DNA of 64,000 nt from Phycisphaerales bacterium (lineage in GTDB: Bacteria > Planctomycetota > Phycisphaerae > Phycisphaerales > UBA1924). Position numbers and translations under genes: made by a program. Shown piece by piece: positions 25,433 through 31,916 of this stretch (the stretch's first letter is position 1; the number at the start of each line of letters is the position of its first letter). The notes beneath the pieces are model-generated. The model did no database searches. It had not been told where the DNA came from and worked only from the letters and a program-made list of their open reading frames with translations. The stretch lies in assembly GCA_030149165.1 (NCBI GenBank), contig JASBRY010000009.1, forward strand, positions 496,001 through 560,000. Reading direction: 5' to 3'.

Positions 25433-25720
25433 ATGAAATCAGCAGTCCTCCTCGTCGTCGGTGCTTTGCTCATCATCACGCCTCAGATCATCATCGGAGT
25501 GATCGCGGCGAACTCGGCTTGGGTGCAGAGCTCGTTTATGCAATCCGTTGCACGGATCGAGTCAGCAGGGCAGATCCCGACGCTTGAGGTCAACGCGTAT
25601 CCACTGCCTTCGATGCCTGACTGGTTGATGTTTACGAGTGTTGGGTTGGGGGTGGTGTTGTGCGTGATGGGATTGGTGAGTGTGTTTAAACCAAGTCCCA
25701 AGAGCGATGAGTCAAGTTAA
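25433..25720 (+). CDS. small two-helix membrane protein
   Basis: 95 residues, unrecognised. Transmembrane helices at about 5-26 and 63-84 flank an extracytoplasmic loop (about 27-61) containing an SVARIES segment and a Pro-rich end (YPLPSMP). The C-terminus is short and charged (KPSPKSDESS). Base composition returns to the local norm. A TATAAT hexamer lies six bases before the ATG (25422-25427), which would give a nearly leaderless mRNA. Its stop codon overlaps that of the convergent nitroreductase gene (shared TTAA). Confidence 0.6.
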   Translation: MKSAVLLVVGALLIITPQIIIGVIAANSAWVQSSFMQSVARIESAGQIPTLEVNAYPLPSMPDWLMFTSVGLGVVLCVMGLVSVFKPSPKSDESS

Positions 25721-26481
25721 CACAGCTTCGCGCCTTTGGACTCGTAGAAATCCGCGAGCCCTTCGCGGGCGGCGTAGCTGTATTTCTTTGCGATCGACTC
25801 GGACCAGGTAGCGGGATTGGCGCCGCGGTCGGTGAGGTATTGTTTGTAGAGCTCGTCGTACTGATCGATGTGCGCGAGGTTCTGCTCGTCGTTTGGGTAC
25901 TCGTTCTCGAACAGCATCGCTTGGGGCGCGAGGCGTGGGCGATGTGATGGGGATTCGTCTGGGGTTCCGGCGCAGAGGCCGTAGAGGGGGAGGACGCCCT
26001 TGGGGAGGTTGAGGATGTCGTTGAGTTTGGGGAGGTCGTTGCGGATGCCTCCGATGTAGCAGGTGCCGTATCCGAGTGATTCGAGCGCGAGCGTGAAGTT
26101 CTGCGCAAACAACGACGCGTCCACGGCTCCGACGAGGAACGCTTCCAGTCCGGTTTTGTACTCATTCTCGCTGCGCTCAGTGATGAGCATGTGCTTGCGG
26201 AGGTCGGCGCAGATGACGAAGAACGCGCCGCAGTCGCGGACTTTCTGTTGTGGTCCGGCGAGGTCGGCGATCTGCTGGCGCTTGTCGTTGTCGGTGATGT
26301 GGAGGATGCAGTAGGGCTGGACGGCGGAGGAGGTCGCCGCGGATTGTCCGGCGATCATCGCGGTGTGGATGTGTTCTTGCGGGATTGGATCGGGGGTGTA
26401 CTTGCGGATCGATCGGTGCGCGAGCATCGTACTGATCGTCGGATTTGTTGATTCGGTCTGTGTTTGAGCGCTGTTATTCAT
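25717..26481 (-). CDS. NfsA-type FMN nitroreductase
   Basis: 254 residues. The N-terminal HRSIRKYTPDPIP and QSAATSSAVQPY segments are the FMN-phosphate-binding motif of oxygen-insensitive NAD(P)H nitroreductases, and GYGTCYIGGIRND and GLCAGTPDE follow in the expected order. The C-terminal extension of about 80 residues is the NfsA/FRP-type excursion. Family members reduce flavins, nitroaromatics or quinones with NADPH as a flavoprotein dimer. ATG at 26481 removes a basic 30-residue extension that looks non-coding. It is transcribed alone. Confidence 0.9.
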   Translation of the reverse strand: MNNSAQTQTESTNPTISTMLAHRSIRKYTPDPIPQEHIHTAMIAGQSAATSSAVQPYCILHITDNDKRQQIADLAGPQQKVRDCGAFFVICADLRKHMLITERSENEYKTGLEAFLVGAVDASLFAQNFTLALESLGYGTCYIGGIRNDLPKLNDILNLPKGVLPLYGLCAGTPDESPSHRPRLAPQAMLFENEYPNDEQNLAHIDQYDELYKQYLTDRGANPATWSESIAKKYSYAAREGLADFYESKGAKLC

Positions 26482-26585
26482 AAATGAGGATAGTTCTGAA
26501 TATCGTGACGGGCACGCACTTGCGGCGCATCCAGTGGGTTTATAGACGGCGGGTTGTGCCGTTGTACACAAGCAGGAGATACAGG

Positions 26586-27395: not shown

Positions 27396-28214
27396 ATGAA
27401 GACTCGCACGAATCCATCACGCGGCTTTACGCTTATTGAACTCATGGTTGTGATCGGGATCATCGGAATCCTGATCGGGATTCTGCTCCCAGCGCTCTCC
27501 GGAGCACGCGGCTCGGCGTTGCAAACCGTCGCGCTGAGCAATGTGCGATCGGTCGGAACACAGTTCCAGCAGTTCGCGGATCAGCACGGCAAGTATCCAC
27601 AACAGAATCCTGGAGAGGTCCCATCGAGTCTGGATCTTGGGCCGGACTTTCAACCGGTTGGTGATGAGATCATCATCGAGTGGTATCCGGGAGGCATGGT
27701 GATCGCGACGACGGACTATTTCAGTCACAGCTGGATGTGGCCTGCGATGTTGGCGCCGATTGATGAATGGCCCAACTACTGGGAGACATGGATCTCTCCG
27801 CGCAAGGATCAGGATCTCCCAAAGCTTGAGGACTTTGATTTTCAGCAGAGCATTAATGAGCGTGAAATGATCTCGCTCGCGTATTCCAACTCGTTTGTCG
27901 CTCGTCCAGAGTTCTGGGATGGTGAGTCGCACGCTGGGGATTTATCGCTGCTGCGATCGACAAGACCGCATGATGTGAAGTACGCGTCGGGGAAAGTAAT
28001 GCTCTGGGATGACGATCTGTCGTATCTCACAGGGAAGAAACTCCCTGAGCGCGTCGATGGATTGCTCGACGCGAAAACTCCCATGGTCTTCGCGGATGGG
28101 CACGCGGAAGCATTGCTCCCGAGCGATGCGAGCGAGGGGGTCGAGAACTCCATGAACGGCGAATCCACAAAGCTGCACAACACAGCCGATGGTGTGCACG
28201 GGCGGGATTATTAA
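27396..28214 (+). CDS. pseudopilin-like protein with prepilin N-terminus
   Basis: 272 residues. [26 protein letters not shown] at residues about 9-34 is a type IV prepilin signal: cleavage after Gly, methylation of Phe, Glu at +5, then a hydrophobic helix. The C-terminal body has the loop-and-strand layout common in planctomycete DUF1559-like pseudopilins, ending near [11 protein letters not shown] and FADGHAE. It starts immediately after the preceding stop. Role is probably in an extracellular pseudopilus or as a surface protein released by a prepilin peptidase, neither of which is encoded here. Confidence 0.8.
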
Positions 28215-28244: not shown

Positions 28245-29063
28245 TTACTTCCAGCGTTCCGGTGATTCGATGTAGTGCGGATTGTTGACTGAACTGATCG
28301 ATCCGATCGCGTGCTCTGGGAGATTTCGGCTGCTCGGATCGTGCGAGCTCCTCTGCACCGATCCATCCACGCGTGCGTTGATCGCTTGTCCGAATCCGGT
28401 CGAGCGGTCGATGCCGTGTCTGAACGCGGTGGTGGGGGAGAAGTTTTCGTACCAGAATCCGTTCCCGGCGTACAGGTTGGGGGGGTCAAGCAACGCGCTG
28501 CTCGATGGGAGATCGCCGTAGAACGCAATGAGAGCATCAGCGAAGACGATGAGCTGGCTCGGTTTTTGGATCTGATGGATCTTGATTGAGCGTTGGTTGA
28601 TGATGGAGTGGTATCCGGTCGAGTTGGGTGCGAGTCCGTACGCGTTGTAGCCGTAGGTCGAGGTGAAGGTGTTGAACTGACCTTGGTGTTTGTAGGTGTC
28701 TTCGGGTTGGTCTGGACATTCATAAACGGAGCGATCTCCGAGCGCCGCGCTGAGGTATGGGGAGAGTGTCCCGCTTGTGTGGTCGAGTGTGTGGGACGAT
28801 GCGCGTTCGGTGCCGTACCAGTAGGTGCGATCCGCTGAGTGTGTCTGGAGGTGGGGCATCGGGGCGCCGCGGTTTTCATCGCTGTACATCGTCCATCCGA
28901 GCACGAGTTGACGGAGGTTGGACTCGCACTTGATCGCGCGGGCGCTGTTTCGCGTGGTGCTGAGTGATGGGAGCAGCATTCCGATGAGCAGCGCGATGAT
29001 CGCGATGACGACCAGCAGCTCGATGAGTGTGAAACCATGATGTGTATTTCGTGTGTTCATCAT
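28245..29063 (-). CDS. pseudopilin-like protein, last gene of the cobalamin-riboswitch operon
   Basis: 272 residues. HGFTLIELLVVIAIIALLIGMLLPSL at about residues 9-34 is a prepilin leader. The body shows the DUF1559/H-X9-DG-like layout: ESNLRQLVLGWTMYSDENRGAPMP, YECPDQPED, TYGYNAYGL, VFADALIAFYGD and RHG...INARVDG. Its first codon overlaps the stop of the upstream beta-propeller gene by four bases (ATGA), so it belongs to the operon led by the cobalamin riboswitch. Its link to B12 is only by position. Confidence 0.8.
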   Translation of the reverse strand: MMNTRNTHHGFTLIELLVVIAIIALLIGMLLPSLSTTRNSARAIKCESNLRQLVLGWTMYSDENRGAPMPHLQTHSADRTYWYGTERASSHTLDHTSGTLSPYLSAALGDRSVYECPDQPEDTYKHQGQFNTFTSTYGYNAYGLAPNSTGYHSIINQRSIKIHQIQKPSQLIVFADALIAFYGDLPSSSALLDPPNLYAGNGFWYENFSPTTAFRHGIDRSTGFGQAINARVDGSVQRSSHDPSSRNLPEHAIGSISSVNNPHYIESPERWK

Positions 29064-30586
29064 GGCTTTGGTTCGAGTGATGAGATCGGTTTGTGTCCAT
29101 CAACAATCGCGCGGATGTGTGATCGCAGGGAAGGGACTGACGGCGTGTTGATCAGTTCGATCGCGCTGAGTCCAGAGTTTGAGGTTGAGAACAATCGATT
29201 CCCGATGATCGCAGGCGAGGTTCCGGTGTTATCCTGCGTTGAGATGATGAACGCTGGATCGCTGGGATGCTTGGAGAGGTCGATGGTGTGCAGCGACTGG
29301 GCGTGTGTGAATGGATCGAACGCTGTTGGGGGTGACATCGTCGCGACGAGCAAGCGTGATTTGCGATCCGCGTTGATTGCGATGGGATGGTGTCCCCAAC
29401 CTCCAATGGAGAGGTAGGGTTCTCCTTGGTCCCATGAGCCGGACATGTTGAGATCCTGGTGGGTTGTTTCGAAGGTGTCCCAGAGGACGGTTGCGGAGTT
29501 GCCTTGATCTTGAATGAGTTCGATCGCTGGGAGTGATCCGGTGAAGATGGTTGAGGGGGAGGTGGGGACCCCGCCTGAGACAATGATCCTGTTGGTATCG
29601 AGAATGATCGGGGTCGCGTTGGTGCGGACTGTCGGGACGGACCATTGCAAAGCGCCTGTCATTGCGTCGAGTTTGATCGTGTTGGCGCTGCGTTGTCCGC
29701 CTTGGAAGTTGTAGCTTGATGCGTAGATGAAGCCGTCGTGGTAGGTCACACCTCCGAAGAATCCGAGTTGTTCTGGGTTGGGTGTGTTCCAAAGCGGTGT
29801 TGGAGCGGTGTTGCTCGTCGCATCGAACGCGAGGACATGTCCTTCGCCTCCACTCCCATCATCCGCGGTCGCGACATAGACGACGCCGTTGTGGTATGCC
29901 GGTGTGTTCCCGGAGCAATCTCCTGGGAGCGTCGCGGTCCAGACAACCTCGCCCGGCTCGTAGGGATTGGTTGTGGACATCGGATCGATGTTGATGCAGA
30001 TGAGTGATCCTGTTGCTCCTGCGGCGAAGGTGTAATCGGTGATGAAGACGCGGTTGGTTCCGTCGAAATCATCGGTCACACAAGGCGACGCGTTGACGAT
30101 GGGTAAACTCGTTGGCGTGCTCCAAAGTTCATCCCCTGAGAACCGATCGAACGCGGAGATGGAGAATCCCGATGCGGCGATCACGCTGTGGTTGTTGGGA
30201 TCAATCGCCGACGATGACCACGAATCGAGGATCGCGAACGAGATCTCGCTGGACCAGATCAGCTCTCCAGACTCTTGATCAAACGCGGCAAGGTGACGCG
30301 TGAAGCTCTGATCGAGTCCGATCGCGTACACATGCACTTCGTCGGCAACGACTCCTGCTTGCGGGACGAAACTCAGTTCGATGGACTTGTCGCCGGTCGT
30401 TGTCCAGTTCGGACTATCGAGCACGGCGCCTTGGGTGTATGTGATCGTTGAGTGTGTGCTTGAGCCACCAAGCTGCGACCACCAGGGCTGTTCGATGAGC
30501 ACCGGTCCTTTAGGGAACGCGATCGGCTGTGCACTGGAAATCGTGCAGGTCAGCAGGGCACACAGGATGGAGGCGGCTTTGTTCAT
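29060..30586 (-). CDS. secreted PQQ/WD40-like beta-propeller protein in cobalamin-riboswitch operon
   Basis: 508 residues with a signal peptide (MNKAASILCALLTCTISSAQ). Repeated four-strand blades follow, with PQQ-like endings: HLAAFDQESGELIWSS, ISAFDRFSGDELWST, LICINIDP...GEVVWTATL, VLAFDATSN and IKLDAMTGALQWSV. Five to seven blades are plausible. No catalytic or quinone site is evident. It is the second gene under a cobalamin riboswitch; Bacteroides BtuG, a secreted beta-propeller that binds B12 at the cell surface, offers a possible functional parallel, which is inference. A very stable hairpin lies 10 bases upstream of its ATG. Confidence 0.75.
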   Translation of the reverse strand: MNKAASILCALLTCTISSAQPIAFPKGPVLIEQPWWSQLGGSSTHSTITYTQGAVLDSPNWTTTGDKSIELSFVPQAGVVADEVHVYAIGLDQSFTRHLAAFDQESGELIWSSEISFAILDSWSSSAIDPNNHSVIAASGFSISAFDRFSGDELWSTPTSLPIVNASPCVTDDFDGTNRVFITDYTFAAGATGSLICINIDPMSTTNPYEPGEVVWTATLPGDCSGNTPAYHNGVVYVATADDGSGGEGHVLAFDATSNTAPTPLWNTPNPEQLGFFGGVTYHDGFIYASSYNFQGGQRSANTIKLDAMTGALQWSVPTVRTNATPIILDTNRIIVSGGVPTSPSTIFTGSLPAIELIQDQGNSATVLWDTFETTHQDLNMSGSWDQGEPYLSIGGWGHHPIAINADRKSRLLVATMSPPTAFDPFTHAQSLHTIDLSKHPSDPAFIISTQDNTGTSPAIIGNRLFSTSNSGLSAIELINTPSVPSLRSHIRAIVDGHKPISSLEPKP

Positions 30587-30595
30587 GGTTTGAAT

Positions 30596-30625
30596 CCGTC
30601 TCGCTGTGTTTCCACAACGAGACGG
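30596..30625 (-). promoter_or_regulatory. 13-bp intercistronic hairpin with GAAA tetraloop
   Basis: On the minus strand the 30 bases form 13 consecutive pairs (one G-T wobble) capped by GAAA. It ends 10 bases before the beta-propeller start codon and is not followed by a T run, so it is not a normal terminator. The upstream GAGAC could pair with the hairpin's GTCTC instead, offering an alternative fold. The GAAA cap reads correctly only in minus-strand RNA. Confidence 0.7.
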
Positions 30626-30659
30626 GTCTCTCTCCACCAGCGGGGTGGAATGTGGTCAG

Positions 30660-31505
30660 TTAGCGTCTGCGGCTGCGCGATGAGATCAGTCCAGAGACAC
30701 AAAGCAGCGCGATCGCGCCCGGAGCTGGAACCACCGCGACGGCGTCGATCTCAAAGGCGCTCCCCGATTCATTCAGGAATCGGACAAAGTTTGCGGACTC
30801 GAGTCCTGTAGAAGCGATGTCGATGCCAATGCCACCTCCTGAGCCGTTGTAGAGATCACGGATCTGCTCGAAGGTCATATTCGCAAAGTCCGCGGCGGAG
30901 AGTGTTGGGTCGAGCGCTTGTGTGAAATCGGTTTCGATCAGTCCCGGTGCGCTTGGTGCTGATTCGGTGAAATCACTGAAACCGAGCGTTGGGAAAAGAT
31001 CAAGGGTGGTGGTGGTCGCGGTGATCCAGTTGACGCCGTCGTTGGAGACTTGGATGGTCGCAGCACCACCAACGCCGAAGATGAATGGGTTGTCGCCTGT
31101 GTATCCCGTTCCGTCGTTCTTGGGATCGGCATCGGTCCATGTGGCATCACTGAATCCGGCATTGGAGAACACGATGAGGTCAACACCGAACGCGTGGTTG
31201 GCGCTGTTGGTGATCGCGGTGTCGAATCCGAGTGTCAGGTGTCCTCCTGCGCCGATGGAGACGAGTTCGTCGTCGCCGAATGCGGGGCTGAACGGGGTGA
31301 CTCCTGTCGCGAAGAGTCCGTCAAAGACATTCTCGCCTGAGAAGCGTTCGGCGCTCCCCAGCGCGGTAGACGGATCAGTGAAACCTGGGAATGGGTCGAT
31401 CCCGCTGTCGTATGACAGCACTGATGTCGCGAACGGGGATGCAAACGCAGCCATGCTGGTGGCGGCGGTAGTGAGCGCGAGCGCTCCGGTGGTGATGATG
31501 TTCAT
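30660..31505 (-). CDS. PEP-CTERM-like surface protein, first gene under the cobalamin riboswitch
   Basis: 281 residues: signal peptide (ALALTTAATSMAAFAS), a beta-rich body and a C-terminus VVPAPGAIALLCVSGLISSRSRRR, a PEP-CTERM-like sorting tail. Body landmarks are PGFTDPSTALG, SGENVFDG, a GAGGHLTLGFDTAI strand, FGVDLIVFSNAGF and ATIQVSNDGVNWI, typical of a jelly-roll or galactose-binding-like surface domain. I know of no enzyme activity for this domain. It is the first gene downstream of the cobalamin riboswitch. Its expression should be repressed by adenosylcobalamin or methylcobalamin if the riboswitch is of the usual off type. Confidence 0.75.
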   Translation of the reverse strand: MNIITTGALALTTAATSMAAFASPFATSVLSYDSGIDPFPGFTDPSTALGSAERFSGENVFDGLFATGVTPFSPAFGDDELVSIGAGGHLTLGFDTAITNSANHAFGVDLIVFSNAGFSDATWTDADPKNDGTGYTGDNPFIFGVGGAATIQVSNDGVNWITATTTTLDLFPTLGFSDFTESAPSAPGLIETDFTQALDPTLSAADFANMTFEQIRDLYNGSGGGIGIDIASTGLESANFVRFLNESGSAFEIDAVAVVPAPGAIALLCVSGLISSRSRRR

Positions 31506-31683
31506 AGAACTTCAAACTCTCTGCCCAAACTCTGGGCGCCTGTGTGCTGTCCTGTTTGCGCGCAGGACACTCCCTTGGATCAACATCCGGAGCTGCGCGT
31601 GTGGAGTGGGGGCGGGAGCTGCGAGCAGGGAGAGCGCACAACCGATCCGCCGACCCATATCGCGAGGTCCGGCACATCTGTTG

Positions 31684-31880
31684 AGGCAGGTCTTCCGGCT
31701 TGGGGCTCTGAGTCGCTCGTGCCTTCCCGGTGTGCTCTCATTTGAAAGAGCGTTTCCCAGTGGCTGCCGATCTGATCGGCGGAGCGGTCATCGTTGCCCG
31801 TTACGGCGGCGCGTCCGCGGTGGAGTCTCACCACACTTCCCTATTCACCGAGCTAGATACATCACGCTCGGCACCTTCAA
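31684..31880 (-). promoter_or_regulatory. cobalamin (B12) riboswitch
   Basis: Read on the minus strand, the conserved cobalamin-aptamer blocks appear in order: GTGGTGAGACTCCAC near the 5' side, the B12 box AGCCACTGGGAAACGC (rc of about 31752-31767), GGGAAGGCACGAG, and the terminal AAGCCGGAAGACCTGCC. A promoter-like pair lies directly upstream and a leader of about 180 bases with two small hairpins follows before the first gene. No terminator with a T run is seen, so control is probably translational. Boundaries are approximate. Confidence 0.93.
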
Positions 31881-31887
31881 CGACAAG

Positions 31888-31916
31888 ACTGTACCAGCGC
31901 GAGGGGGATTGAGCAA
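31888..31916 (-). promoter_or_regulatory. promoter of the cobalamin-riboswitch operon
   Basis: On the minus strand TTGCTC and TACAGT are separated by exactly 17 bases. Transcription would begin around 31881, just at the 5' edge of the aptamer. Confidence 0.6.

Follow-up and report, generated by a model that had tools for sequence, protein, structure and literature searches.

A cobalamin-riboswitch operon of the Phycisphaerales that encodes a BtuH relative and a dedicated pseudopilin and is likely to serve B12 capture at the cell surface

Why does a cobalamin riboswitch precede genes for secreted proteins and a pilin? The question is raised by a 64,000-nucleotide stretch (the window) of a Phycisphaerales bacterium (GenBank assembly GCA_030149165.1, contig JASBRY010000009.1, positions 496,001 to 560,000), which is part of a 2.84-Mb genome (G000; 94% complete). 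A first-pass annotation, made from the sequence alone, had described a promoter, a cobalamin aptamer and three co-oriented genes, none of them a known btu gene, and had proposed that their products capture B12 at the surface, with the second one acting in parallel to the BtuG propeller of Bacteroides. From comparison with related genomes, we consider it likely that the three genes form an operon that B12 represses and whose products capture cobamides on the cell surface. The relevant elements, all on the minus strand, are as follows.

31888..31916, minus: promoter, TTGCTC-17 bases-TACAGT, assigned by its position and by a pattern conserved at related loci
31668..31893, minus: cobalamin riboswitch aptamer (RF00174, 81.5 bits, E=1.7e-18)
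31809..31813, minus: CGCGC in an aptamer loop (GGACGCGCC at 31808-31816), complementary to the GCGCG of the leader hairpin, with which it may make contact
31548..31569, minus: leader hairpin with a GCGCG loop, a possible regulatory P13-L13 element recognized in the sequence 42 bases before the first gene
30660..31505, minus: protein 1 (281 aa), BtuH-family putative B12-binding surface protein, from profile homology and fold
29060..30586, minus: protein 2, secreted PQQ/BamB-like beta-propeller (PF13360, 57.1 bits; fold)
28245..29063, minus: protein 3 (272 aa), dedicated pseudopilin (N_methyl and DUF1559 in Pfam), set apart from the other pilins of the genome

An Infernal search, as proposed in the first-pass annotation, recovered the aptamer at 31893-31668 (gathering threshold 31.5 bits; model positions 1-189, complete); this is the sole cobalamin riboswitch found in the window's genome. 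The promoter hexamers TTGCTC (31916-31911) and TACAGT (31893-31888) are separated by a spacer of 17 bases, and the second lies over the opening positions of the aptamer model. Their agreement with the consensus is weak (3 + 4 = 7 of 12 bases), and a single-sequence consensus scan of the leader region reported no promoter, which suggested a chance pattern. This suggestion was overturned by the related loci. TTG-N(16-18)-TAnnnT, placed so that the second hexamer falls where the aptamer begins, was present at 65 of 95 riboswitch loci, including 50 of the 57 from the window's family, whereas ten shifted positions per locus gave an expectation of 0.1. Because the pattern recurs across loci, the promoter described in the first-pass annotation is supported despite the weak consensus and the missed scan.

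A loop-loop contact between the aptamer and a leader hairpin is typical of cobalamin riboswitches. CGCGC occurs within the aptamer at all 57 loci of the window's family, and a leader hairpin with a GCGCG loop was counted in 51 of the 57 (30/36 where protein 1 is encoded first, 21/21 where an alternative gene, F1, comes first), compared to 28% and 24% of shuffled leaders, respectively; judged by eye, a few of the hairpins counted are probably different ones. The complementary loops fit such a contact, which may form in this leader. Terminator-like sites were about as frequent as in shuffles (4 vs. 3.1), and none was found on the transcribed strand of the leader.

Protein 1 had no match in Pfam at E-values up to 1. 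Profiles of its homologues were more informative: A8 was built from nine homologues from F1-type operons, A2 from 18 window-type homologues, and A1 was mixed. A8 matched 8blw_B (BtuG1, residues 393-541) at 1.8e-25 and 7biz_A (BtuH2) at 9.6e-18, with the next match at 0.22, and A1 retrieved 8blw_B at 6.2e-9. A2 and A8 aligned with one another (99.6%, E=1.1e-24). In a Foldseek search, the predicted model of the window's protein 1 (mean pLDDT 89.5) retrieved 8blw_B at rank 1 (1.7e-5) and 7biz_A at rank 5 (1.0e-3); other matches near the top were CBM32 domains. Since A8 matches the BtuH chains, A2 aligns with A8, and the model retrieves both chains, protein 1 is by homology a relative of BtuH, and the statement that the operon holds no known btu gene has to be withdrawn. 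BtuH2 binds B12, and the extension of BtuG1 is a BtuH domain (PMC8941943, PMC10404256; these and the other papers cited are drawn on in excerpt); the residues with which BtuH2 touches B12 are described in PMC8941943. Protein 1 may likewise bind B12 through its BtuH domain.

Protein 1 starts with a signal peptide-like segment and ends in a PEP-CTERM-like tail (about 30663-30731). An assignment of protein 1 to DUF4465 was considered and rejected, as PF14717 was absent at E-values up to 1; the window's genome gave no PF14717 match at all. One of the C-terminal motifs known from DUF4465 proteins, IPR013424, is presumably PEP-CTERM. In alignment A6, 12 of 67 protein-1 homologues weakly matched the LIC_13355 lipoprotein family (best 0.00064).

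The gene content is largely conserved within the order. The riboswitch was found at E<=0.001 in 188 of 201 genomes (184 over the cut-off), mostly once per genome, and a protein-1 match in 138 of the 201. Linkage was assessed with 113 protein-1 matches of at least about 60 bits, weaker ones being omitted; 38 of them fell in genomes that had no riboswitch among the matches listed, which leaves 75 testable ones. For 74 of these, a co-oriented riboswitch precedes the gene at a distance of 56-331 bases, the exception being in genome G006. We compared gene content at 101 loci (100 fetched plus the window), 95 of which were chosen by their riboswitch, from the higher-scoring rows and thus not at random, and six by protein 1. 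The 95 riboswitch-chosen loci contained the protein-1 family in 85 cases, a pilin on the operon strand in 90, a Fer2_BFD-like gene in 51, the protein-2 propeller in 35, F1 in 23, a family termed G49b in eight, and DUF4465 in five. The pilin is therefore the most widely kept partner (90/95 vs. 35/95 for the propeller). It was missing from L078, L102 (contig end), L121, L123, and L141, while protein 1 was missing from L102, L121, L123, L141, L145, L148, L150, L152, L153, and L156. Behind the riboswitches of L153 and L156, no gene other than the pilin was recognized. Four of the six loci chosen by protein 1 had an upstream RF00174 match above gathering; at L118 the match fell below it (27.3), and L117 had none. 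Among 80 named-record loci, several on short contigs, RF00174 was present in all ten tested, and 72 held the pilin, 45 the BFD protein, and 28 protein 2.

Gene order varies by family. The 57 loci of the window's family read protein 1-protein 2-pilin(-BFD) in 35 cases, F1-protein 1-pilin(-BFD) in 20, and protein 1-BFD in one; one is cut by a contig end. The 18 loci of family f2 comprise 15 with protein 1-pilin(-BFD), one with protein 1, pilin, and G49b, and two with G49b alone, and in families f5 and f6 (18 loci) DUF4465 joins the operon in five. The first-pass annotation had named a missing cobalamin-model match and a gene order not kept in relatives as results that would count against it. Neither came about, because the riboswitch match is strong and the order behind it is conserved; what the annotation observed is confirmed, and its interpretation is partly supported.

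Protein 3 matched the prepilin N-terminal motif PF07963 (35.6 bits, cut-off 21.2) and DUF1559 (29.6 bits, cut-off 23.3), in agreement with its description as a pseudopilin. The window's genome contains 35 pilin-like matches. With a profile of operon pilins that included the window's own pilin, the latter scored 299 bits and the runner-up 120; the operon pilin of G052, which was excluded from the profile, scored 233 bits against 108 for its runner-up. The distance is smaller in G049, where other pilins score nearer to the operon-pilin profile (192 bits). A tree of 95 operon pilins with 30 further rows placed 28 of the latter outside the operon groups, and the remaining two (L160 at 6328, and L256) are themselves riboswitch-operon pilins. 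The operon label requires four changes on this tree and the root is weak, so that a single clade is not demonstrated. By sequence comparison, these pilins represent a subfamily specific to the operons. A secretin (PF00263) was found in all 61 sampled genomes, with three matches in the window's genome. A second prepilin-type protein is encoded at 27396-28214 on the plus strand, convergent with the operon pilin and outside riboswitch control.

The open reading frames of the three genes span 30660-31505, 29060-30637, and 28245-29063 on the minus strand, and the last two share four bases (29060-29063), as had been described. The frame of protein 2 is open up to 30637, with a probable ATG at 30586, and both protein 1 and protein 2 have signal-like starts. 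Protein 2 is a PQQ-like propeller, as the first-pass annotation had it (PQQ_2, PF13360, cut-off 27.6), and in sequence and fold searches it resembles BamB, tetrathionate hydrolase, and PQQ enzymes. The proposed parallel to BtuG did not hold: BtuG was absent from the 11 sequence matches and 50 fold matches listed. F1, an unrelated first gene, replaces the propeller at 21 of the 57 riboswitch loci of the window's family, where the two are mutually exclusive. Their profiles are unrelated (3%), and no BtuG was among the F1 matches at E-values up to 1, which removes F1 as a BtuG-like propeller as well. Of the surface-capture idea, the conserved B12-riboswitch surface operon remains; the candidate for B12 binding is the sorting-tailed protein 1 and not the propeller.

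The remaining genome content bears on the need for such an operon. CbiC was found in none of 101 sampled genomes of the order, and B12-binding domains were present in all 61 genomes sampled for them. The window's genome has four, one in a frame of 1199 residues that, from its size, may be MetH. The TonB Plug domain (PF07715) was absent from the window's genome and from all 29 sampled genomes of its family; the 39 of 101 sampled genomes of the order that have it all belong to other families. A BtuF-type domain (Peripla_BP_2) was found in 92 of 101 sampled genomes, the window's genome not among them. Given the lack of CbiC, the universal B12-binding domains, and the absence of Plug domains, the window's family looks B12-dependent, not self-sufficient, and free of TonB receptors. 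The excerpt of PMC7029141 describes non-producing bins, including a Phycisphaera bin, as carrying B12 transport genes, outer membrane receptors among them, and this speaks against extending the receptor-free state to all Phycisphaerae.

We propose that low B12 would turn the operon on, and that B12 bound to the aptamer would lock the contact with the leader hairpin and shut it. Protein 1 would be exported, held by its sorting-type tail, and bind B12 with its BtuH domain, while the propeller would be an accessory protein of the surface or periplasm. The pseudopilin may join the cell's secretin-based pseudopilus, where it would display or export the capture proteins or help bring B12 inward. For a cell that seems to depend on B12 without building the corrin ring itself, the operon would stand in for a BtuB receptor. 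Several observations weigh against this proposal. A2, that is, the window-type proteins alone, retrieved no BtuH chain by sequence, and the Foldseek TM-scores by query were low (0.28 and 0.21). The tail of protein 1, called PEP-CTERM-like in the first-pass annotation, does resemble the motif, but its match of 12.6 bits lies under the cut-off of 16; PF07589 was passed by three of the five L160 operon proteins tried. Locus L078 (G176), from the same genus, keeps protein 1 but has no operon pilin, and G031 holds the pilin operon together with a riboswitch-controlled TonB receptor. Since the genome is 94% complete, absences in the window's genome alone are not firm.

How the pilin contributes is less certain. 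Type II secretion systems export proteins with the help of pseudopilins, and the operon pilin could be a cargo-specific pseudopilin that exports the capture proteins, B12 then entering by an unrecognized porin or receptor. The signal-like starts of proteins 1 and 2 and the presence of secretins agree with this, whereas the pilin operons at L153 and L156 have no recognized cargo gene; we entertain this explanation tentatively. In a bolder version, the operon would be a TonB-independent import machine, with the pseudopilin on a type II-like platform moving the B12 held by protein 1 through the secretin. The absence of Plug domains in the family, the ubiquity of secretins, and the retention of the pilin as the most widespread gene, and as the only recognized one at L153 and L156, speak for it. 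So do pili-like fibres of other planctomycetes that bind dextran, which the authors speculatively link to uptake (PMC5394234, in the part used). The coexistence of pilin and TonB receptor in G031 and the pilin-free G176 speak against it, and the assembly of this pilin into a pilus is itself conjecture. To our knowledge, uptake of such a small molecule by a pilus has no precedent. We consider this version rather unlikely, and judge equally the wider claim that the family imports B12 without a TonB-dependent receptor, from a BtuH-type binder through a dedicated B12-repressed pseudopilus to the secretin.

Matrix and adhesion functions often involve pilins and proteins with sorting tails, and the CBM32-like fold of protein 1 would fit sugar binding. 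The gene products might thus form a biofilm matrix or surface structure for which B12 is just a cue that neighbours, such as algae or B12 producers, are present, and they would then bind no B12. The specific homology of protein 1 to BtuH and the B12-binding DUF4465 proteins in sister operons make this improbable. That the genes lie behind the riboswitch by accident, outside its control, can hardly be reconciled with the riboswitch upstream of 74 of the 75 testable protein-1 matches, the conserved promoter pattern, and the leader hairpin, and we give it next to no credence. Capture of cobamides by a B12-repressed surface operon thus remains the reading we prefer.

Further observations concern neighbouring genes and other loci. 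The fourth gene, Fer2_BFD-like, is missing from the window operon; the genome's one BFD gene lies on another contig. The BFD protein of L061 (L061:4935-5177, minus strand) matched PF04324 with 27.0 bits (cut-off 26). The gene usually lies directly behind the pilin (48/50 within 450 bases), and at L078, where propeller and operon pilin are missing, directly after protein 1; at a guess, this ferredoxin might reduce cobalt. A pyridine-nucleotide-disulphide oxidoreductase follows the pilin at L153, and similar starts were seen by eye at L150, L152, and L156. The secreted G49b-type family (L160:2792-3538, plus strand; eight loci in all) lies behind cobalamin riboswitches, and its L160 member has a PEP-CTERM tail, no Pfam domain, and no solved relative; it is a further candidate for a B12 surface protein. 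When searched singly, two more proteins of the L160 operon had no solved relative at a useful E-value. The cobalamin riboswitches of the order are otherwise orthodox: one precedes the large and small chains of a class I ribonucleotide reductase at L141 (G064), and another a TonB receptor, ExbB, ExbD, and TonB at L156 (G031). In the window, a nitroreductase (25717-26571, minus strand; 221 vs. a cut-off of 223 for the NADPH nitroreductase family) has weak BluB similarity, and was rejected as BluB with a score of 37.7 vs. 150. The operon also occurs in bins labelled Leptolyngbya, Kuenenia, Singulisphaera, Limnohabitans, or Bacteroidia (L185, L202, L208, L209, L211, L213, L216, L232), which are probably mislabelled.

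Among the papers listed on cobalamin riboswitches, planctomycetes, pilins, PEP-CTERM, and B12 uptake, no title or opening line of an abstract describes this operon; none combined cobalamin riboswitches with planctomycetes, and the one that combined them with PEP-CTERM concerns a denitrifying reactor. BtuH-type capture, so far placed in gut Bacteroidetes and in three Firmicutes that the excerpt of PMC8941943 names, would reach further with this operon. Kept through a planctomycete order, it names candidate parts for the passage of B12 across the outer membrane without TonB-dependent receptors, and it links one of the numerous, little-understood pilin-like proteins of planctomycetes to a nutrient. 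Pilin-driven import, if true, would be a novel way of taking up small molecules.

Several known systems share parts of this arrangement. Like the pseudopilus considered here, the pili-like fibres of planctomycete crateriform structures are pilin-type appendages proposed to act in uptake; that work concerns dextran and other planctomycetes, and the part of PMC5394234 used does not name a pilin gene. Within the order, G031 has the BtuB-TonB-ExbBD system under a cobalamin riboswitch, whereas the Plug domain was not found in the window's genome or the 29 sampled genomes of its family. BtuG is likewise a secreted beta-propeller in a B12-riboswitch operon, but protein 2 matches other propellers. DUF4465/BtuJ proteins are all-beta secreted proteins of B12-riboswitch operons (PMC12751083, PMC13398666) and share the operon at five of the 95 loci, while protein 1 itself lacks a DUF4465 match. 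According to the excerpts, B12 binding was observed for a DUF4465 protein from another planctomycete, Mucisphaera calidilacus (PMC13398666), and 38% of DUF4465 proteins bear C-terminal extracellular targeting motifs (PMC12751083). The closest likeness is to BtuH2 and the BtuH domain of BtuG1 from Bacteroides thetaiotaomicron (7biz, 8blw; PMC8941943, PMC10404256), with which protein 1 shares the homologous domain, cobalamin-riboswitch control, and its nature as a surface protein. Protein 1 differs in having a sorting-type tail, no evident lipoprotein anchor, and no PKD or propeller domain in its chain, and the window operon has a pseudopilin and no btuB. In its proposed working, the operon is like the surface scavenging of B12 in Bacteroides, with another anchor, another propeller, a pilin as partner, and no BtuB neighbour.

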